Source: an uncultured Gemmatimonadota bacterium
GTDB taxonomy: Bacteria; Gemmatimonadota; Gemmatimonadetes; Gemmatimonadales; Gemmatimonadaceae
Direction of reading: 5' to 3'
Assembly (NCBI GenBank): GCA_902826615.1
Contig: CADEFN010000003.1
Span: 393,133 to 457,132 of the forward strand
DNA: 64,000 nt
A program made the translations under genes and the position numbers. Numbering within the stretch: the first letter of the stretch is position 1; each line of letters opens with the position of its first letter. A model generated the notes under the pieces. That model saw only the letters and a program-made list of their open reading frames with translations, did no database searches and was not told where the DNA came from. Positions 13,940 to 31,605 of this stretch are shown here, in pieces.

Positions 13940-15181
13940 TCAGCCACCCCGGAGGTTGGGGTTGTTGTCCCGCTCCTGCAGCGGCAGTGGATAACACGTC
14001 ACACTCCCAACCGGTGCAAAACCAGCCTTGAAATACGCTGAACCGGGCGCTGGGAGCGCCGTCATGTTGTTCGGGTTACGGCGCGAGTCACCAAGCCGCT
14101 TCCCTTCCAGCCAGAAGTCGAGCGACTTCTGCCACAGTAGCTCGGTCAGCACCGCGGAAGCCGTCGTCGCGCCGCTGTACCCCGGCTGCCCGGCCGCCGC
14201 CCGACGAGCCGCAATCAAAGCCAGCTGGTCTGCCGTCGTCCCCGCCTCGGCCGCGATGTAGTCAGCCTCCAGTTTCGAAGCTACGCGGATGGGGGTCGTG
14301 AAGGCCGGGTACTTGTCCTGAATGAAGAACGCACCCGCCGAGGGATCCTGCGGTGTCAGGTTGTGCTGATTTGGGGCCTTGAATCGCACACGCGAATCGG
14401 TGACCCGAAAATCGGGCGCCACACTGATGGAACCACGATCGAGTGTAAACTGCCACATGCGATTGCCGAGCCGATTCCGGTTGGCCAGGTCGTCGATGTA
14501 GCCGAGCGTGAATGCAAAGGCCGCTGGCACGGCGGCGGCGTCTGCCGCAGCCTGTGTCTTGCGCCCGGCCTGTAGATGTGCCCGCGCCCGCCCCACGAGG
14601 GCGGTGTTGGCCAGTGCAGTCGCTTCTGCCGTGTTGATGGCGCGTCCGATCGTGATGGCTTGCGTGAAGTTGGCCACCGCCGAGTCGAGCATGATTGCCG
14701 TGCTCAGCTCGGGGCCCGATTCCACGGTGCCCGTGCAAAAGGTCTCTGCCATGAGCACAAACGAGAATCCCCGCCACAAGGCTGTTCTTGTGAAGTTCAG
14801 GTTTGTGGTGGGATTGGGTAAGGCCAGCTTGAGCACCAGGTTTGACGACGCGGCCGCGGTGGCCAGCGTGGCCCACACATCGACGTTCAGGTTGCCGTTG
14901 GACTGCTGCACGTCGCGACGCCCGAACTCATTGCGCGTCGGGAAGGTCTCGGACACCTGGGCTTCACCGGTAAACCAGGCCTGATACATGATTGACCATC
15001 CCAGTGCCGCCGCAAAGTTCTGCTGCGCCGAGTTGGCCAGTGTGCCGGCATCAGCCACCGGATCGATCGCCCCAACGTCAATGACGTTGGGATTGTCCAC
15101 CGCGAGGAAGTCGCTGCACGCGACGCTGAGGGCGCAGGCCGAGGCCAGCAGGCCTCGTCGCACCAGAGAATATGAATGCAT
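13940..15181 (-). CDS. SusD/RagB-family lipoprotein (pair 2)
   Basis: A 413-residue lipoprotein, short for the family. The leader ends in LSVAC with the lipidation cysteine at residue 22. Conserved features include GEAQVSETFPTRNEFGRRDV near the N-terminus and the C-terminal ELLWQKSLDFWLEGKRLGDSRR segment typical of SusD proteins that lack the long insert of pair 1. The gene starts 8 bp after the SusC stop. As with pair 1 there are no flanking glycoside hydrolase genes, so the ligand could be a peptide or another organic oligomer. Confidence 0.9.
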   Translation of the reverse strand: MHSYSLVRRGLLASACALSVACSDFLAVDNPNVIDVGAIDPVADAGTLANSAQQNFAAALGWSIMYQAWFTGEAQVSETFPTRNEFGRRDVQQSNGNLNVDVWATLATAAASSNLVLKLALPNPTTNLNFTRTALWRGFSFVLMAETFCTGTVESGPELSTAIMLDSAVANFTQAITIGRAINTAEATALANTALVGRARAHLQAGRKTQAAADAAAVPAAFAFTLGYIDDLANRNRLGNRMWQFTLDRGSISVAPDFRVTDSRVRFKAPNQHNLTPQDPSAGAFFIQDKYPAFTTPIRVASKLEADYIAAEAGTTADQLALIAARRAAAGQPGYSGATTASAVLTELLWQKSLDFWLEGKRLGDSRRNPNNMTALPAPGSAYFKAGFAPVGSVTCYPLPLQERDNNPNLRGG

Positions 15182-15189
15182 GGCTGATA

Positions 15190-18100
15190 TCAGAAGGTGA
15201 GGTTGACGCGCAGAACTGCGCGGCGCGGATTGGGGAGCGTGAAGAAGTCGGTGCGGTTGAAGTCATTGTTTGCCGCCGACACCACTTCGGGGTCCGGACC
15301 TTCATAGTCAGTCCACAACCCGATGTTCTGCATGGCCAAACCGATCGTAGCTCCAGACAAGCGACCGAAACGCAGGGCATTGCGTGGCAGGGTGTAGGTG
15401 GCCGACAACTCGCGGAAGCGAATGAAGTCACCCGGCTGGAGGAAGGCGTCACGCACTTCGTCCACCGTGGTGGTGCGGCCGTTTTCCTGCACAAAGGCCG
15501 GCTGCCCGGCCGTCGGGTTGCCATAACGACGCAGACGCTCACGACGCGAGAGCACCAGGGTGTCGAGCCGGTTGTTGCTGCGGACCACCTGCGTCTCGCG
15601 GAAGAAGTCGGCGTTGTTGAACACCACGAAGTCCTGCTTGGTGTCGACTAATGCGCTGAAGCGCCAGTTGCGGAAGAGCGTCACGGTGTTGGTGATGCCG
15701 CCTTCGAGTGTCGGCCAGAGATTGCCCGCCACCTCGAAGGTGTCCGCGACCGTCACACGCCCCGACACTTCGTCGATCGAACGGATGCGCTTGGAGACGA
15801 ACGCACCGGGCTGATATCCCGAGGTAAAGCGATTCAGCGTACCAAAGGGCGACACCTCACCGAGGCTGACCACCTTGGTGTTGAGTGTGTTCATCGCAAC
15901 TCGTGTCTCCCAGTCGAAGTTTTTCGAGCGGAGGAGCACGGTGTTGAGCGCCAGCTCCCAACCCTTGTTGCGCACCTGGCCGATATTGGCGAAGGGATTC
16001 GCCTGAAAACCAAGCGACGGAGGAAGAGGCCGTTGCAGCAGCACATCTCGGCTGACCTTGTCGAAGTAGGTGAGTTCGAGCTGCACGCGATCCTTGAACA
16101 ACGTTGCATCAAAGCCGCCTTCGAATTCGGTGCCACGCTCCGGGAGGAGCTTTTCGTTGCCGGGGTTGAGCGGAACTGCACCAGGCTCGGACACAATCGA
16201 CTGCCCATTCGTCACCGCTGACGGTGCCGAAGTGAGCGTGGTCAGGGCCGCACCGGGCAGCGGGGCGCGTCCCGTGGTGCCGTATGCAGCGCGCAGACGG
16301 AACGATCCGACAATGTTGGCCAGCGGCTCAAAGAAGGCCTCATCGCTCACCACCCACGAGCCACCGATCTTCGGCAGGAGGATGGGGTCGGTCTCGGTAC
16401 CAAAGGCGGAGAAGTCGTCGTAGCGAGCGCCCACCTGCAAGAAGAGCCGATCACGCCAGCCGAGTTGCAGCTGGCCGAGCAGGCCGACCTGTCGTGTTTC
16501 GTTGAACTGCTGATTGGACGTCGTGGTCGACGCCGAGCCGATGACGTTGGAACTGTTGGTCGTGAAGCCCTGCCCGGTGGCCGCAAGTGAGTCGGTGCGC
16601 GTCACGATGGCCTGTGCACCTAACGACAGGTTGAGCGCGAGCCGGTCGTCGGAGAGATATTTGCGGCTGATGTCCGAGATGAAGTCGGCCGTATAACGCT
16701 GGGCATTCAGCCGCGTTTGTGTGTTGTTGCCCGTGTTGAGCAGGCCGGCGTACTGACCGACACCATTCCGCGGGAAGAAGCGGGTGGCTTCGTCCTGCAG
16801 GAGGTCAGCGCCAATCGTCAGACGATTCTTCAGCCAGGCGTTCGGCAGATGCGTACCGGTCGCGGTCACGATATTCCGGCGGGTCGTCACGTCGTTATCG
16901 ATGGCTTCGATGGCCGCCACCTGACGCGCAAAGCCGAACCAACCATCCTGACTCGCGACGCCGTCGTCGCGCCGGGTGAGGGGCGAGCCCAGCATCGCAC
17001 CACCGAGATAGCCGTAGATGTTGTTATCGTTGTCGGGAATCAGGGCGGTAGACTGCAGCGTCTGGATCCCGGCCTCGAAGGTCAGCTTCGGTGTGGGGAC
17101 AAAGTTGAAGTTGGTCCGCAGCGTGTAGCGGCTGAACTCATTGCTTGGCAGGACACCCAGGCTGCGGTCGGCGCCGGCGCTCAGGAAGTAGCCATAGTTC
17201 TGTCCACCACCACGCCCGCTCCAGCCCAGCAGCAGGTCGGAGCCCTGACGGAAGGCACTGGTGCGCTCGAGCGGATTGTCGCTGACGAGCGTACCGACGG
17301 TCTTGCCACGGCAGAGCGGATTGGTGCTGGTCGAGGCGACAAGCGCTGGGGTGCAGGCACCGAAGTTGGCCGGCGGCGTGTAGTTGCGATCCACGGTGCC
17401 GTACTCGCTGCGCAGCGTCTGCGAAAACGAGTTCGACCCGATCCGTCCGCGTTTGGTGATGATCTGGATCACGCCGGTTGAGGCGTCAGCGCCGAACAAC
17501 GTCGCGGCGGCCGGTCCCTTGACGACTTCGATGGACTCGATGTCGTCCGGATTGAGGTCGTTGAGACGATCGGTAACCTGTCCGCCGGTCCCGAGGTTGG
17601 ACGACGTCTCCACCACGCGCACGCCATCAATGAAGACGATGGGGCGATTGGCGAGGGAGATCGATGCCGGACCACGCACGCGAATGGAGCGCGACGCACC
17701 GGCCTGGCCCGAGCCCGAGTTCACCGACACACCGGCCATCCGCGACTGCAACATCTCGTTGACGTTGGTGATCGCCGCGGCCGCCTTGATATCTGTAGCA
17801 CTGAGGCTCGTCACCGTTGCCGCCTGCGCACGTCGTTCCTGATTGCCCACCGTACCCGTCACCACGACGTTGGAGAGGGTGGTGAGTGACGCCGAGAGGG
17901 CAAAGTCTTTCTGTACCGTCTGTGTCCCGGTCACCTGGACGGTGTCCGACATGGCGCGATAGCCGATACGGAGCGCCGCGAGCTGCACACGCCCCGCCGG
18001 GACATTGAGCAGTCGATATTCACCACGGTCATTGGTGACCGTTTCGAGCGTGGTGCCGACGACACGCAGACGCGCATCGCCAAGCGGCGCGCCGCTGACC

Positions 18101-18216
18101 ACATCGGTCACCCGACCTGTGATGCTGCCGCCTTGTTGTGCGGCGAGCGGATCCGCCACGATGGCGGCGAGGGCCAATGCCCCCAATGCCCTGCTGAGCT
18201 GACGAGGGAGGTGCAT
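15190..18216 (-). CDS. SusC/RagA-type TonB-linked outer membrane protein (pair 2)
   Basis: A 1008-residue transporter with signal peptide (ending PLAAQ), carboxypeptidase-regulatory-like domain (about 32-110), plug with SIRVRGPASISLANRPIVF and IESIEVVKGPAAATLFGADA, and a barrel ending in VLRVNLTF. The ATG at 18216 is chosen because AGGAG lies about 8 bp upstream. The frame stays open to 18267, but that extension has no leader. It is the first gene of a two-gene operon with SusD pair 2. The plug and barrel differ clearly from pairs 1 and 3, so this is not a recent local duplication. Confidence 0.94.
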   Translation of the reverse strand: MHLPRQLSRALGALALAAIVADPLAAQQGGSITGRVTDVVSGAPLGDARLRVVGTTLETVTNDRGEYRLLNVPAGRVQLAALRIGYRAMSDTVQVTGTQTVQKDFALSASLTTLSNVVVTGTVGNQERRAQAATVTSLSATDIKAAAAITNVNEMLQSRMAGVSVNSGSGQAGASRSIRVRGPASISLANRPIVFIDGVRVVETSSNLGTGGQVTDRLNDLNPDDIESIEVVKGPAAATLFGADASTGVIQIITKRGRIGSNSFSQTLRSEYGTVDRNYTPPANFGACTPALVASTSTNPLCRGKTVGTLVSDNPLERTSAFRQGSDLLLGWSGRGGGQNYGYFLSAGADRSLGVLPSNEFSRYTLRTNFNFVPTPKLTFEAGIQTLQSTALIPDNDNNIYGYLGGAMLGSPLTRRDDGVASQDGWFGFARQVAAIEAIDNDVTTRRNIVTATGTHLPNAWLKNRLTIGADLLQDEATRFFPRNGVGQYAGLLNTGNNTQTRLNAQRYTADFISDISRKYLSDDRLALNLSLGAQAIVTRTDSLAATGQGFTTNSSNVIGSASTTTSNQQFNETRQVGLLGQLQLGWRDRLFLQVGARYDDFSAFGTETDPILLPKIGGSWVVSDEAFFEPLANIVGSFRLRAAYGTTGRAPLPGAALTTLTSAPSAVTNGQSIVSEPGAVPLNPGNEKLLPERGTEFEGGFDATLFKDRVQLELTYFDKVSRDVLLQRPLPPSLGFQANPFANIGQVRNKGWELALNTVLLRSKNFDWETRVAMNTLNTKVVSLGEVSPFGTLNRFTSGYQPGAFVSKRIRSIDEVSGRVTVADTFEVAGNLWPTLEGGITNTVTLFRNWRFSALVDTKQDFVVFNNADFFRETQVVRSNNRLDTLVLSRRERLRRYGNPTAGQPAFVQENGRTTTVDEVRDAFLQPGDFIRFRELSATYTLPRNALRFGRLSGATIGLAMQNIGLWTDYEGPDPEVVSAANNDFNRTDFFTLPNPRRAVLRVNLTF

Positions 18217-18537
18217 GATGAACTCCTGCAAGAGGGTTCTGCGGCCACGACGATCGTCGTCAGGCACGCATGCCGACTATTCGGCACCCCTACAAGAGTC
18301 ACGAGCTGGGATATGGGCCAGCTGTACGGGACAAAGGGACGGAACGACGCCACCAACGACACGTGGGAGCCTGACGAGGAGAGTGGGCCGGAGCGCAACG
18401 GACCGTCCCTTCCCTTTCTGCCACCTTTGTCGTTCTCGGCGATTGGGACATCCCTGTCACAGAATGGCCCACCTCGGAGATGCTCCGGGACGGGCCACTC
18501 ACACACCTGTACACAACAACATCACACGCTCGACCGC
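18217..18537. other. Intergenic region upstream of SusC pair 2
   Basis: About 320 bp between the SusC start and the end of the lipoprotein gene, both on the minus strand. It should contain the SusC promoter. I see no convincing coding sequence, RNA gene or strong hairpin. Short open frames here on both strands have no ribosome site or recognisable protein features. Confidence 0.5.
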
Positions 18538-21440: not shown

Positions 21441-23924
21441 TCACCGGCTGCCGAAATACACCACGTTGGTCGCCTCTGACCGTGCGACCACGATGTCGTT
21501 GAGCCCATCCTTGTCCAGGTCACCGACGGCGAAACCGTAGGTCACCCCGCTGGCATCGCCAAATGGCACCGACGAAAAGCGCCCCGGTGCATCATTAAAG
21601 AACACTATCGACCGATTGCTGGTGTAACCCACCAGCACGTCGGGACGACCATTCCCGTCGACATCGTGCACCGCCAGTGCATAGGGACGTGCCCCGGCTG
21701 GCCCCAGTTGTTCGGGCGCCGCGTAGGTGCCGCCAGACAAACCACGGACTGTTGCCGCACTCCCCGACTCATCGATCGTCGCAAGATCCATGATGCCATC
21801 GCTGTCGAAGTCGGCGGCGTACGCGCTGCGGATGGTAGCATTCGCCGGGCCGAATGGACGACGCGACGGAAAGGTGCCGCGCCCATCGTTGATGTACACG
21901 TAACTCTGTCCGCCGTCGCGGTGTGGCACCACCAGATCGAGGGCCCCATCACCACTCACGTCGGCCATGGTGATGGTGGTCGCCGAGCCGGTCGAGATCT
22001 CGCGACAGTTTGCCTCGATGCGTCCCTGGCCAGCACCAAGACAAGCATAACTCGCCGTCGCTTGGCGACTCCCACGATTGGCCAGCACCAGATCCTTGAT
22101 GCCGTCACCGTTTATGTCACCCACTGCCACGTGCCGGGTGTTCCACTCAGGTTTGCCAAACACGGAAGTGAGTGTGTACCGCCCCGTGCCATCGTTGCGG
22201 TACACCTTCTTGCGGTCCGGCGAATCATTGCTGACGACCATGTCCAGCGCGCCGTCGCCATCCATGTCCACCAGCACACCCGAATACGATCGGTCGGCGG
22301 CGGTGTCCACCGGGACAGGTTTGCCGAAGCTGCCTTTGCCATTGCCCAGCAGCACGAGATTCTGCAGCGGCCAGTGACGACCCTTCACGAGCACGATATC
22401 AAGGTTCCCGTCGCGATTCACGTCGCCCACACTGGCATTGGCCGATGTGTACCCGGAATCCTCGAGTGCGAGTGTACGTTCGAATCGCCGAGCGCCAGCG
22501 GCAGCGGCGTCGCTCCCACGTGGCCCACGGCCTGACGAGAGCTCGCGCGGCTTGCGCGCACTGCACTTGATCTCCACCAGGGCGGCCGGTCGCGGCATCG
22601 CCGTCACTGACAAGGTCGCGCGCGCCGGAGGATTAACGGGAAAATACTTGATGTACTCCGCATTCATCGCCGCGTAGTCGGCCATGTCCTTGAGGAACAC
22701 CGTACACTCGGCCACATCGGCCATGGTCGCGCCACCGGCTTCGAACGAGGCCCGGATGTTCTCCATGGTTTGCCGAGTCTGCGCCGCCACGCCCCCGTCG
22801 ACGATGTCCTGTGTTCCGGGCTTGATTCCCGTCATTCCCGACACAAACACCCAGTCGCCATCGCGAATCGCGACCGAGTAGGCTGGCACCAGGGGCTTGA
22901 GTCCCGGCGGATTGATCACTTCGCGGCCATTTGGCGCGCTGGATGCTGACGCCACCGTTCGGGCGGGCACGACGATGGGGGTGAACCAGGTCGGCGAGAA
23001 GGTGCGGCTGCCTGGTGACGCCGCCTTTACCTCGTCAAGGAAGCGCGCCCGGTCGGCCAGCGCGGCAGCGCTCGGTTTGGGATCGCCATAGGCGTCGGCA
23101 TGACTCGGGATGACCAGCGCCGGGTAGCCAAGCGCGCGCAGCAGGCGGCGTGTGTAGTCGTGAATCTCCAGCCGCTGGCTATTGGCGCCGACCAGGGCAA
23201 TGTCGGGCCGAAGCCCTTCCATTTCCCGCTCGATGAAATTCATCGAACCCATGATCAGTACTTCATGACCGGCCATGCGAAGGAGGTAGGCAAAACTTCC
23301 CCCTTCCTGGTAGTCGCGCCGGCGGAGCGGAGCCTTGAGCCCGCGCGGCGCCGTGCCCGCTATGCCGCGACCATTGTTGAAATACCGTTTGTCGTCGAGT
23401 GCGCTGTGAATGCTGGGCACCACACGCAGCGAGAAGTCGTCAAAGGCGTAGTCCTCACCACCGCGTACGGTGATGAGCTGACTGTCGGCCACCGCGTATG
23501 CACGCGACAGGTTGGCCGCCGTCTCGCTCCCGATGACGACCGCCCCTGTGCGTTTGGCGATGTACCCCGCGTCGAGTGCGTGGTCGGAGTGGCCGTGGGT
23601 GATGAGGATGTAGTCGGCCCGGCTCACATGCCGATTGATGAGTGCCGTGTCCGCCGCATACAGCGCCCCGGCATCGGGGCCTTCACTCCGGGCGCCCGGC
23701 TGCCAGCGCGCAAACTGCGTGAGAAAGGGATCGACCAGCACCACTCGGCGACCATCAGTAATCTCCCAGCCTGCGTTACCGAGGTAAGTGAGGCGGAGTT
23801 CACCCTGAGCGAGCGGTGTTGCCGACGACGCCGGGCTGGCCCGCGGCGAAGGGCTCTGCGCGTCGGCGAAGGCGGTCATGACGACCGTGCTGGCAAGTAC
23901 GGCAATGACGTGCCGGAGGGGCAT
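21441..23924 (-). CDS. Secreted metallo-beta-lactamase / RidA / FG-GAP fusion protein
   Basis: An 827-residue protein with three modules. After a signal peptide (1-22) comes a metallo-beta-lactamase-fold domain (about 40-310) with ITHGHSDHALD, giving His110, His112, Asp114 and His115, plus later His273. Residues about 336-457 form a RidA/YjgF-like domain with the conserved PPARATL arginine. From about 498 onward are seven FG-GAP/VCBS repeats with DxDxDG-type calcium loops (DVNRDGNLD, DMDGDGALD, DINGDGIKD and four more). The ATG at 23924 starts the signal peptide. RidA proteins are normally free cytosolic enamine/imine deaminases, so an exported fusion is unusual. The physiological role is unknown. 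Confidence 0.85.
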   Translation of the reverse strand: MPLRHVIAVLASTVVMTAFADAQSPSPRASPASSATPLAQGELRLTYLGNAGWEITDGRRVVLVDPFLTQFARWQPGARSEGPDAGALYAADTALINRHVSRADYILITHGHSDHALDAGYIAKRTGAVVIGSETAANLSRAYAVADSQLITVRGGEDYAFDDFSLRVVPSIHSALDDKRYFNNGRGIAGTAPRGLKAPLRRRDYQEGGSFAYLLRMAGHEVLIMGSMNFIEREMEGLRPDIALVGANSQRLEIHDYTRRLLRALGYPALVIPSHADAYGDPKPSAAALADRARFLDEVKAASPGSRTFSPTWFTPIVVPARTVASASSAPNGREVINPPGLKPLVPAYSVAIRDGDWVFVSGMTGIKPGTQDIVDGGVAAQTRQTMENIRASFEAGGATMADVAECTVFLKDMADYAAMNAEYIKYFPVNPPARATLSVTAMPRPAALVEIKCSARKPRELSSGRGPRGSDAAAAGARRFERTLALEDSGYTSANASVGDVNRDGNLDIVLVKGRHWPLQNLVLLGNGKGSFGKPVPVDTAADRSYSGVLVDMDGDGALDMVVSNDSPDRKKVYRNDGTGRYTLTSVFGKPEWNTRHVAVGDINGDGIKDLVLANRGSRQATASYACLGAGQGRIEANCREISTGSATTITMADVSGDGALDLVVPHRDGGQSYVYINDGRGTFPSRRPFGPANATIRSAYAADFDSDGIMDLATIDESGSAATVRGLSGGTYAAPEQLGPAGARPYALAVHDVDGNGRPDVLVGYTSNRSIVFFNDAPGRFSSVPFGDASGVTYGFAVGDLDKDGLNDIVVARSEATNVVYFGSR

Positions 23925-27927: not shown

Positions 27928-30900
27928 CTACCTCTTTCGCTCTTTTGGCTTTGGCATCACCCGCACTTGGTACTCACTCCCGCCGACCAGGCGACCGCCA
28001 CTCCACTGCTCGACGTAGAACACCGGCACAGTGCCGGCCCTTACTCCGGATGGCAACTTGACGTAGATGGCGGCCGGAAGGATCTGCTTCGTCGGCAGAA
28101 TGCCGAAGATCCCCGGATGTTCTCCACGCCTTGCCGCGCGGCGCCCCACGTCAAGCACAAACGCGCGGTCGGCGCGAAATTTGGGGGGCTCGCCGCACTG
28201 TTCTTCGGGCGGGTCCGGGATACGGAATCCCTTTCGCGGACGGAGTGACAGCCCGGGGATGGACTTGTCGAGCGGCAGCCGAGTCTTGAACTCCGGCAAA
28301 TAGAAATGCACCCGCGTCCCGCGCGGCAAGGTCCCGGGGTTGATGCGAATGTCGACGTACTCCGCGCTTCCGAGGGGCGCGAAGCCGATGAAAATCGGGC
28401 CGGCCCCTTCGTCGGCACCAGGCCCGCCCGGAATGAAGGCCTGCACATGCAGGTTCTTCAGCGTGACGTTGTTGTCGGCGTTCACGGCGGTGGCAATGTC
28501 GAGCGCCGCTGTTGTCACTCCGTTCTCCGTACACGTCGCCGAGGCAAGCATGCAGGTGTGGTCCGGCGCGCTGGCAGGGACCAGCCAGCTCCAGGACGCA
28601 ATCTTCGGATTCCCGGGGAGGATGTCGCCGAGCGAGATGGCCGTACCGACGGGATGCCAAACCGAGGTATCGGAGGGGTCAGTGTTGGGAAACGCGGTCC
28701 AGAAGTCGGCCGGCAAATTGGGCAGCCCGCCACCCGCATTCGCCCAGAACGGGCGCACCTGCACGTTGGTCGCCGGGTTGTTGCCACGATTGTGCACCTG
28801 CACATGCACGCGCACCCATGTATTTCGCCGGGGATTGTCGTGCGTCAGCTCCTCGAACTGTACATAGTCGATATCGCGGCTCGGGGTCTGGTAGGCATTC
28901 GTCACCGGATCGGGAGCATCCACCTTGATGTCGGGCGATTGGTACCAGTAGACCGTCTCGCCCGCATTGAACGGGTGCTCCACGCCCGATGGACCCGGCG
29001 TCGCCAGCCCCGTATCCAGCACATCGTCGCGCAAATAGATGTCTGTGAGCGGGATGGATGCCGCATCCACCGGACGTTCCCATACGGAGCGTCCGTGTGT
29101 CGCCGCACGCAAGAGTCGCCGAGGCGCGAAGAACTTCAGGTCCTGCACCGAACAGTTGGGGAGACCAGTATCCCAAGTTGCCCAGGCCCCTCCCCCGTTG
29201 GTGGAGCGGAAGATGCCGACATCGCACCCGATGAAGATGGTGTCGGGATTCAGGGGATCGATCGCGACGGCATTCACCGGGTTGGCCTGGGCGAGCCCCG
29301 TGGAACGATTGGCCCAGCTCGTTCCGCCGTTGGTGGTACGAAAGACGTGATCATTGGTGAATTCCCCGGCGCCTTCCGAGAAGATCAGGTTGCTGGTCGT
29401 GACATACGCGATGTCGGCATTGGACGGATGTACGGCGATGTCGGAGATCTGCCCTGCGGGGAGCGGCGCCGACGTGACATTCGTGGCGGTCCACGATCCG
29501 GCGCTGAAGGTGAGGCGAAACACGCTGCCATTCTGCATACCCACATACACCCGGTTGCTGTCCGAAGGGGCGATGGCAATGGCTGTGATGTTGGTGCCGG
29601 TTCCGATCAGCGACGCCGTGATGGCCGTCCACGTGCCGCCACCGTCGGCGCTCCGCCAGAGCCGGTCGTAACCGACGTAGAGCACCGTTGAATCGCCGGG
29701 ATCCATCTCCAGCGGCGGGTAGAACCAGTTGCTGTTGGTGCCGATTGTGCCCTTGACGTCAGTCCATGTCCCGGGAGCGCCCGCGCTGTCGCTTCGGAAG
29801 ACCGGGAACGAAAACCAGCGGCTCTCGTACCAGCGCCGGATGTTGGTAGTGGCGTTGATGGCAGCATACGCGCCATCGCCTAACGCAGAATGCTCCCAGG
29901 CCGGATGACTCAGATACCGCTGGGCGCCATTGTCCTGCGTGCCACCAAGCATCACCGCATCCCACAGCGAGTGATTGGCGCATGTGAAATACTGCAGGGT
30001 CGCCAGGTCCTTGTTGCGGTGGGCATACGTGACCCCACCATCGGCGGAGTAAAACACCCCGCCATCATTGCCGACAAACACCCGACTGCCGTCCGTGGGA
30101 TGGAAAGCCACGGCGTGCTGGTCGGGGTGAATACCGGGCGATCCCGTGCTCACGCGCGTCCACGCGCCACCGCCATTGGTGGTGCGCCAGAGGTGCACCT
30201 CGCCAAAGAGGACCCGGTTGCTGTCGGTGGGATCAACGCCGAGCACCAGGTTGTAGGCTGCCTGGGCTACGCCGGCCGGTGTGGCGGCAGTTTGGGTCCA
30301 GGTGGTGCCACCATCCGTCGTCCGATATATCCCCGTGAGCGCGGAGCCGTTGGCGAACGCCGCGTAAAGGGTGCCCGCGTTGCCGGGCGACATCGCCAGA
30401 GCAATGCGCCCTCCCGACACCGGAAGCCCACCACCGAGTGTGGACCACGTGGCTCCGCCGTCGGCGCTGTACCGAACTCCCGTGCCCGACTGTCCCACGT
30501 ACAGCTCGGGGCCGGCCGCATTGCCCCAGTCCACCACCAGGTCGAAAAAGATCCCGGCTTCGAGCTGCGCCCAGTTGAGGCCCCCGTCGTTCGATTCGTA
30601 AATCCCGATATCGGTCGCGGCATACAAGTGCTGATTGTCGGCCGGGTCAACCTTGATAGTGGAGAACGCGGCACGCGCAAAGGTGGCGGCCCCCCGTGTC
30701 ACCCAGGTCTCACCCGCATCGGTCGACAACAACAAGCCGGCCCCGTAGTAGCTGTCGCTCCCGTTAGGCTCGCCGGTCCCGGCCAGGATCCGCTGCGATT
30801 TGCCGCCCAGCGCAACAGACGAGTCCACCGTCACGCACCCAATAGCAAGCGATGGGGCAAAGTCGCTTTTCGCGCGCCAGTTCAACCCTCCATCGCTTGA

Positions 30901-31605
30901 TTTCCACACGCCCCCCTGCGCGGTCGCCGCGTACACGATGGCCGTATCGAGGGGGTCCCAGGCAATGCTTGTCACGCGACCGGAAATGGGGGCTGTAGCC
31001 CAGGTGCCAGCCGCCGCCCCGAACACCTGGCCGCCACGCACGACGGAGGGTCCAATGCAATACCAGTTGGCGCCGGGATCGACTGGCGGAGCTCCAGTAT
31101 CCGGGTCGAACTTCCGACCACGGTGCCGCATGGCATCGCGATGTGCCAGCGCCCGCAATCGGCTCCCCGGTCGACGATTCACTCCGTCAGGAAATCGCTC
31201 AACGAGGAAATGCGCCTGACGCCGGAACCAGCGATGGGTGGGACGTCCATCCTTGCCGGTGTCGGGCACACGATCAATGACGATCTCTACATTCGCCTGC
31301 TCGGTGCGTCCACGTACCCTGCACGTCGCGACGATGCGGTGCCGCCCGGCGCTCAGCCCGGGGACAGTCAGCAGCACAAGAAACTCACCGGCGACGGGCC
31401 GCACGCTTTCCCCGGACGCCTCGCCGCGCAGGACGATCGCGGGAGTGATGACCCTCTCCCCGTCGAGGAGGAAGGTGACCGGGCAACTGCTCCATCTGCC
31501 ACCTGCAAGCTGGATCTTGTGCGGGAACAGATACCGGTCCGGCAGCGCCACCAGGACGGGTGACTCGCGTCGGCCCTTCAGTCGGGAGGTCGTACGCTTG
31601 GCCAT
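27928..31605 (-). CDS. Giant Asp-box (BNR/sortilin-like) propeller protein, 1225 aa, no leader
   Basis: A 1225-residue protein. Residues 1-190 are Arg-rich with an Ig-like strand pattern and no hydrophobic signal peptide. From about 190 to 880 there are around ten Asp-box motifs of the S(S/T)(D/N)GGxxW type (for example SSDGGLNW, SNDGGLNW, SADGGATW, TTNGGTSW), typical of beta-propellers of the sortilin/BNR class. The C-terminal 330 residues look like beta-sandwich domains with an invasion-type NNPATNVQVRPFWAN segment. GGAG precedes the ATG at 31605 by about 8 bases. A propeller this size without a leader is odd, and it may use another export route. Confidence 0.82.
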   Translation of the reverse strand: MAKRTTSRLKGRRESPVLVALPDRYLFPHKIQLAGGRWSSCPVTFLLDGERVITPAIVLRGEASGESVRPVAGEFLVLLTVPGLSAGRHRIVATCRVRGRTEQANVEIVIDRVPDTGKDGRPTHRWFRRQAHFLVERFPDGVNRRPGSRLRALAHRDAMRHRGRKFDPDTGAPPVDPGANWYCIGPSVVRGGQVFGAAAGTWATAPISGRVTSIAWDPLDTAIVYAATAQGGVWKSSDGGLNWRAKSDFAPSLAIGCVTVDSSVALGGKSQRILAGTGEPNGSDSYYGAGLLLSTDAGETWVTRGAATFARAAFSTIKVDPADNQHLYAATDIGIYESNDGGLNWAQLEAGIFFDLVVDWGNAAGPELYVGQSGTGVRYSADGGATWSTLGGGLPVSGGRIALAMSPGNAGTLYAAFANGSALTGIYRTTDGGTTWTQTAATPAGVAQAAYNLVLGVDPTDSNRVLFGEVHLWRTTNGGGAWTRVSTGSPGIHPDQHAVAFHPTDGSRVFVGNDGGVFYSADGGVTYAHRNKDLATLQYFTCANHSLWDAVMLGGTQDNGAQRYLSHPAWEHSALGDGAYAAINATTNIRRWYESRWFSFPVFRSDSAGAPGTWTDVKGTIGTNSNWFYPPLEMDPGDSTVLYVGYDRLWRSADGGGTWTAITASLIGTGTNITAIAIAPSDSNRVYVGMQNGSVFRLTFSAGSWTATNVTSAPLPAGQISDIAVHPSNADIAYVTTSNLIFSEGAGEFTNDHVFRTTNGGTSWANRSTGLAQANPVNAVAIDPLNPDTIFIGCDVGIFRSTNGGGAWATWDTGLPNCSVQDLKFFAPRRLLRAATHGRSVWERPVDAASIPLTDIYLRDDVLDTGLATPGPSGVEHPFNAGETVYWYQSPDIKVDAPDPVTNAYQTPSRDIDYVQFEELTHDNPRRNTWVRVHVQVHNRGNNPATNVQVRPFWANAGGGLPNLPADFWTAFPNTDPSDTSVWHPVGTAISLGDILPGNPKIASWSWLVPASAPDHTCMLASATCTENGVTTAALDIATAVNADNNVTLKNLHVQAFIPGGPGADEGAGPIFIGFAPLGSAEYVDIRINPGTLPRGTRVHFYLPEFKTRLPLDKSIPGLSLRPRKGFRIPDPPEEQCGEPPKFRADRAFVLDVGRRAARRGEHPGIFGILPTKQILPAAIYVKLPSGVRAGTVPVFYVEQWSGGRLVGGSEYQVRVMPKPKERKR

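Follow-up and report, generated by a model that had tools for sequence, protein, structure and literature searches.

A predicted-exported MBL-RidA-FG-GAP propeller fusion as one form of a recurrent trio in Gemmatimonadota

The window (the whole 64,000-nucleotide stretch of contig CADEFN010000003.1 that was analysed, from an uncultured Gemmatimonadaceae bacterium) harbors on its minus strand a gene with its ATG at 23924, its stop at 21441 and no internal stops over 827 codons. The initial annotation had assigned a fusion of a metallo-β-lactamase (MBL) fold, a RidA domain and an FG-GAP propeller to positions 21441-23924, naming no strand, and these coordinates correspond to this one minus-strand gene. 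Its features are the following:

21441..23924, minus strand: whole gene, encoding a predicted-exported MBL-RidA-FG-GAP propeller protein of 827 aa (open reading frame)
23856..23924, minus strand: signal-peptide-like N-terminus (MPLRHVIAVLASTVVMTAFADA; read from the translation and by our own hydrophobicity rule)
22959..23807, minus strand: MBL-fold domain, residues 40-322 (Pfam, profile search, AlphaFold2 pLDDT 90.5, VIA-align)
23580..23597, minus strand: metal motif HGHSDH, residues 110-115 (read from the translation; ligand-type residues invariant in the alignment)
23244..23246, minus strand: Ser227 of GSMN, which takes the place of the bridging Asp found in the GDTG of TM_1162 (profile alignment)
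22548..22925, minus strand: RidA domain, residues 334-459 (Pfam, match to PDB 2dyy, alignment)
22620..22622, minus strand: R435 in PPAR, counterpart of RidA/TdcF Arg105 (invariant in the alignment)
21444..22487, minus strand: seven-repeat FG-GAP β-propeller, residues 480-827 (Pfam, AlphaFold2, Foldseek)

Pfam places Lactamase_B_3 at residues 44-249 (E 6.8e-10, above the curated cut-off), Ribonuc_L-PSP/RidA (PF01042) at residues 348-457 (E 5.5e-27; 94.6 bits against a cut-off of 27.3) and FG-GAP_3 in 7 stretches (E 6.9e-40; 135.9 bits against a cut-off of 26.9). The AlphaFold2 model, a monomer built with 42 sequences, reaches a mean pLDDT of 85.8 and is floppy at 325-331 and 463-476; with a full-length pTM of 0.49 it shows three folded domains and fixes no mutual placement for them. 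From this single model Foldseek recovers an integrin/CRTAC1-type propeller, a UPF0173-type MBL and a YjgF-type RidA. The proposed triple fusion is thus borne out by Pfam, AlphaFold2 and Foldseek, and by the frames of two other assemblies (L012 and L013). The count of seven propeller repeats agrees with the 7 FG-GAP_3 stretches and with seven DxDxDGxxD-type repeats, and the signal peptide claimed ahead of the MBL domain finds its counterpart in an N-terminus that is signal-like by our hydrophobicity rule.

In L012 and L013 the MBL-RidA-propeller frame is equally uninterrupted, at 77-78% identity, and a search of the gene's own genome returns it as a single full-length match without a stop, on a 720-kb contig. 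Against L013 and L012, dN/dS is 0.07 for the MBL domain, 0.07 for RidA and 0.09-0.15 for the propeller, and the N-terminus and linkers retain only 34-45% identity. All three domains are under purifying selection. An assembly or frame artefact that fused separate genes draws on the fact that related loci do carry separately encoded parts; set against the continuous frames in two further assemblies, the low dN/dS of each domain beside divergent linkers and the stop-free match in its own genome, it has a negligible probability. The initial annotation had named an assembly error as one way in which its claim could fail, and such a join is ruled out by the L012 and L013 frames together with the selection on all domains. 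It had also pointed to separate genes in close relatives. These do exist. Since the frame is continuous in other assemblies, they do not count against the fusion, and they strengthen the functional link between the parts. The gene almost certainly encodes a genuine fused protein. Two further relatives are less complete. In genome G012 (L011/L037) the propeller is split over two frames with about 55 residues missing, the cause being gene decay or else an error in the assembly. In G090 the MBL-RidA part is cut off by the end of one contig and a propeller that has no signal peptide sits at the end of another, an arrangement compatible with the same fusion, short of proof.

Research on Rid enzymes has centred on a cytosolic housekeeping role, the removal of reactive imines formed by PLP enzymes and amine oxidases. 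The RidA domain of the window protein matches PDB 2dyy (E 4.4e-24), and the alignment shows the pocket residues Y349, S362, N421, R435 and E451 to be present; for S362 and N421 the pocket assignment uses E. coli numbering that we assume. R435 and E451 are invariant in 24 aligned RidA rows, which upholds the conserved arginine noted earlier. Arg105, Tyr17 and Glu120 of E. coli TdcF, the counterparts of R435, Y349 and E451, are named in Niehaus 2015 (PMC4433059), where the arginine of Rid proteins is taken to predict imine hydrolysis and Rid proteins are described as typically trimeric. Because its TIGR00004 score of 92.9 bits is below the curated cut-off of 106.25, the domain is filed, on its sequence, as a RidA-like member of the Rid family. 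The RidA clade of the window also has a lineage-specific GMTG where GQIP is expected. This replacement, the trimeric habit of the family and the conversion of E. coli RidA into a chaperone by N-chlorination (PMC4284807) would suit a RidA domain that serves outside the cytosol mainly as a trimerisation scaffold or oxidant-activated chaperone, with the MBL domain as the enzyme and the propeller as an anchor. However, the Arg, Glu, Tyr, Ser and Asn of the imine-hydrolase pocket are kept, as catalysis would require, and RidA also occurs with the propeller in the absence of MBL, and alone as a predicted lipoprotein. A scaffold or chaperone is therefore unlikely, and the RidA domain is probably catalytically active.

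The nearest solved folds of the MBL domain are TM_1162, Igni18 and the cAMP-bound UPF0173 protein 7e3w (Z 22-23); VIA-align superposes it on 3x2y (TM_1162) with Z 23.4 and an rmsd of 2.5 over 216 residues. UPF0173 is its nearest fold and not a family to which it belongs: in NCBIfam the window protein reaches 57.3 bits for PRK00685 (UPF0173) against a curated cut-off of 144. A true β-lactamase was considered and rejected, since the protein scores 16.4 bits against a cut-off of 100 in the NCBIfam class B β-lactamase core model and has no bridging Asp. All 23 aligned MBL rows keep the four ligand-type residues of HxHxDH, the third His (173) and the last His (275) unchanged. In the profile alignment, the GDTG of TM_1162 falls on GSMN, replacing the bridging Asp by Ser; Ser or Gly occupies this position in every one of the 23 rows, and the metal-bridging Asp of the usual dinuclear site was found neither in the window MBL nor in any of these rows. 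The HxHxDH motif described as intact is thus kept, but the site as a whole is not. As read from the alignment, the site may be mononuclear, may recruit a different ligand or may lack hydrolytic activity. The last option, in which the MBL domain binds or senses a ligand and RidA is the sole enzyme, accords with the Ser or Gly throughout the rows and with the cAMP bound in the UPF0173 relative 7e3w; given the invariant HxHxDH and later His residues, and a dN/dS of the kind seen in a constrained enzyme, we consider it improbable. The balance inclines, somewhat less firmly than for RidA, toward a hydrolytic MBL domain.

The propeller carries the GRHWPL motif of its family. Seven DxDxDGxxD-type loops are read in its sequence, which makes calcium binding by the loops a reasonable prediction, and the Foldseek matches are CRTAC1, the propeller chain of KICSTOR and integrin-type propellers. 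In the propeller tree, which contains one very long branch (G354), the propellers of MBL-RidA-FG and FG-MBL-RidA proteins occupy separate well-supported clades, each next to stand-alone propellers; the propeller fusion hence arose at least twice. Backbone support in the RidA tree is weak and its bootstraps are unsettled.

Signal-like N-termini were scored throughout by our own hydrophobicity rule rather than by SignalP. By this rule they are present in 22 of 23 RidA-first frames (14 with a lipobox), 23 of 25 MBL-first frames and 32 of 37 FG-first frames, and some of the remaining frames are cut at contig ends. Signal-like N-termini also occur in 20 of 33 other Rid matches of related genomes, so the premise that RidA proteins are cytosolic does not transfer to this group. 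Exported Rid proteins appear to be common in the Gemmatimonadota group of the window. Stand-alone Rid proteins with lipobox-like signals, predicted to be lipoproteins, are seen at L213, L216, L217, L218, L219 and other loci. The accidental joining of a cytosolic Rid protein to the other domains was considered and rejected.

Each domain was searched separately in 179 family genomes and linkage was read from the listed coordinates. MBL is present in 24 of these genomes, the window-type RidA clade in 39 and the window-type FG family in 42. The MBL and RidA parts are at most 3 kb apart in 21 of the 22 genomes having both, in one frame in 15 and adjacent in 6; in the remaining genome, G102, a truncated RidA gene follows MBL where the contig ends. 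RidA and FG lie within this same limit in 19 of 32 genomes, and MBL and FG in 13 of 22. Where RidA and FG are not so close (13 of 32), they are on different contigs in 12 cases, some at contig ends, and in G080 they are separated by 237 kb on one contig. Several family genomes hold a single part. Co-occurrence of the parts gives Fisher p values of 1e-14 to 6e-20, in tests that ignore relatedness. The arrangements are:

MBL-RidA-FG in one frame: window, L012, L013
FG-MBL-RidA in one frame: L018, L019, L020
MBL-RidA with FG in tandem: L014
MBL-RidA with FG convergent: L017, L022
Three separate genes, FG divergent: L026, L028, L030
RidA-FG fused without MBL: G081
RidA and FG adjacent without MBL: G083, G093, G094, G098, G104
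MBL-RidA, or MBL beside RidA, with FG on another contig: for example G068, G073, G103, G110

The window gene is therefore one form of a recurrent predicted-exported trio in Gemmatimonadota.

Outside the family, a sample of 298 genomes of the phylum yields the window-type MBL family in 33. Twenty MBL genomes were followed (18 from other families of the class, a divergent own-family copy in G020 and G378 from the Sphingomonas order). With a query from G228, a propeller of the same kind is found in 19 of these 20 and adjoins MBL in 7 of the 19. PF14588 Rid, a different Rid subfamily, is present in 13 of the 20 and is fused to or beside MBL in 4 of the 13. In G228, G231 and G311 it forms the N-terminus of the MBL protein, which reverses the order, and in G228 the propeller gene follows this fusion directly downstream on the same strand. 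In an alphaproteobacterial record (L033), a Rid gene overlaps the start of the MBL gene. MBL and FG are adjacent without an adjacent PF14588 Rid in six genomes (G235, G263, G284, G349, G354, G363); a RidA-type Rid beside MBL-FG was searched for in G354 only and not found. The MBL-Rid, Rid-FG and MBL-FG links are thus each seen without an adjacent third part, with RidA-type Rid checked for MBL-FG in G354 only. MBL relatives on two actinomycete plasmids (L240, L241) have neither a Rid of the modelled types nor FG within 5 kb. Sphingomonas sp. 35-24ZXX carries an MBL-RidA fusion at 73% identity (L023:7920-9296), likely acquired by transfer between phyla, because MBL is rare in its order (2 of 296 genomes). 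Two other records show further partners. At L204:1737-5138 (plus strand) a PQQ-dependent dehydrogenase propeller (PF01011) shares one frame with an FG-GAP propeller of the same family, and a stand-alone MBL relative lies convergently at L204:5179-6243 (minus strand). At L206:4292-5617 the frame holding MBL starts, at its N-terminus, with a short stretch of flavin amine oxidase (Amino_oxidase, NAD_binding_8), perhaps left over from an adjoining gene.

Fusions and neighbourhoods of this sort could be neutral by-products of gene fusion and fission, with no functional coupling. The parts are on different contigs or single in several genomes, and the fused proteins share descent, which makes the events fewer than the genomes. 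Nevertheless, there were at least two independent FG fusions with differing orders, and all three pairs recur in linkage in further combinations that extend to other families and to a second Rid subfamily; neutrality is accordingly very improbable. A functional partnership of MBL, RidA and propeller is very likely. As the parts are predicted to be exported, linked despite their varied order, and conserved, they are best viewed as partners that would act in one extracytoplasmic process. They are separable, as seen in RidA-FG without MBL, MBL-FG without an adjacent PF14588 Rid and single-part genomes, and an obligate two-step catalysis in all carriers is for this reason unlikely.

The neighbour scan covered 130 of 145 genes, the others being the 12 genes of L030, L147 and L032, which are near-duplicate or distant loci, and three long genes. 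Neighbours of the trio genes include members of M1, M24, M28, S9 and S15, γ-glutamyltranspeptidase and asparaginase. Among the 25 commonest families, S9 is counted 4 times, S15 and PF00144 3 times each, and γ-glutamyltranspeptidase, M1, M24, M28 and M20 2 times each, with partial overlap since the same proteins are counted under more than one family. The control covered 123 of the 255 genes predicted in random stretches; it gives 2 for S13 and shows M23 in one member (25 commonest families, relatedness uncorrected). The peptidase context is thus a loose list against a small control. The MBL-RidA-propeller gene of L013 is immediately preceded, on the same strand, by genes for a DAO/GCV_T protein and a predicted FAD oxidoreductase whose N-terminus is twin-arginine-like (L013:3374-7691), and partners of that kind are reported for RidA genes (Niehaus 2015, PMC4433059). 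A 1225-aa frame with what we read as BNR/Asp-box-like repeats lies at 27928-31605 (minus strand) of the window, and a homologue is near the propeller-MBL-RidA gene of L020 (1611-5021). A gene pair that we take to be SusC/SusD-like (13940-18267) lies some 3 kb past the window gene on its 3' side. Homologues of this pair are directly upstream of MBL-RidA at L016:3404-7737, and a homologue of the SusD-like gene is near L025 and L027.

From the observed fusion, its conservation and the pairwise fusion or adjacency of its parts, we infer a single extracytoplasmic process and the outline of its chemistry. The MBL domain would act on an amino compound by hydrolysing a bond of amide, lactam or ester type, and RidA would hydrolyse the resulting or accompanying enamine or imine to a carbonyl compound and ammonia. 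RidA is probably trimeric and would thereby bring three copies together, and the propeller may provide docking, be it to a substrate, a glycan or a partner at the surface. That the window gene is the fused form of a conserved predicted-exported module of MBL hydrolase, Rid imine/enamine hydrolase and FG-GAP propeller is a proposal for which the case is evenly poised. More tentative is a broader version, a predicted-exported catalytic module that would have arisen at least twice from different Rid subfamilies and would pair an MBL hydrolase lacking the bridging Asp with a Rid imine hydrolase to act together on a propeller-bound substrate, and the strictly sequential chemistry, MBL and then RidA, is somewhat more doubtful again. 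The most likely role is that of a periplasmic or surface module for nitrogen scavenging from amides or peptides, given what the Rid arginine predicts, the peptide and amide hydrolase neighbours and the oxidoreductase partner at L013. If the broader version is true, enamine/imine chemistry would take place outside the cytosol as a step in nutrient scavenging or detoxification.

Each of the three domains is of a known kind, and the findings suggest that the trio is an undescribed working unit. The initial annotation knew of no described system with this order; likewise, no description of the MBL-RidA-FG architecture or of the trio was found in the open-licence PMC literature among the matches listed. 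In the passages checked, PMC12419801 and PMC4921024 are not about this architecture, and the word "lactamase" is not in the main text of Niehaus 2015 (PMC4433059). A recurrent exported Rid partnership, in several orders and with two Rid subfamilies, would imply imine chemistry outside the cytosol on a substrate nobody has sought. Because the partners exist both fused and separate, the link is directly testable.

The window protein shares features with several known systems. Its RidA domain has the fold of known RidA proteins (1x25, 2dyy; TM 0.91 on target) and, like the RidA subfamily of Rid (YjgF/YER057c/UK114), scores above the PF01042 cut-off and has counterparts of Arg105 and Glu120. In contrast to that subfamily, it is under the TIGR00004 cut-off, has GMTG in place of GQIP, is predicted to be exported and is fused to MBL and a propeller. 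The 3x-RidA tandem fusions (Niehaus 2015, PMC4433059) also contain Rid within a multidomain protein, but they join three Rid domains together, with neither MBL nor propeller. The MBL domain has its nearest solved fold in UPF0173 (TM_1162, Igni18, C7P97_11315), with which it shares HxHxDH and the later His residues; it differs in the replacement of the bridging Asp by Ser and in its predicted export. The propeller resembles FG-GAP/VCBS propellers (CRTAC1, integrin α, bacterial FG-GAP_3) in its seven blades with DxDxDG loops, but represents a distinct GRHW-motif subfamily that is fused to, or lies beside, Rid and MBL.
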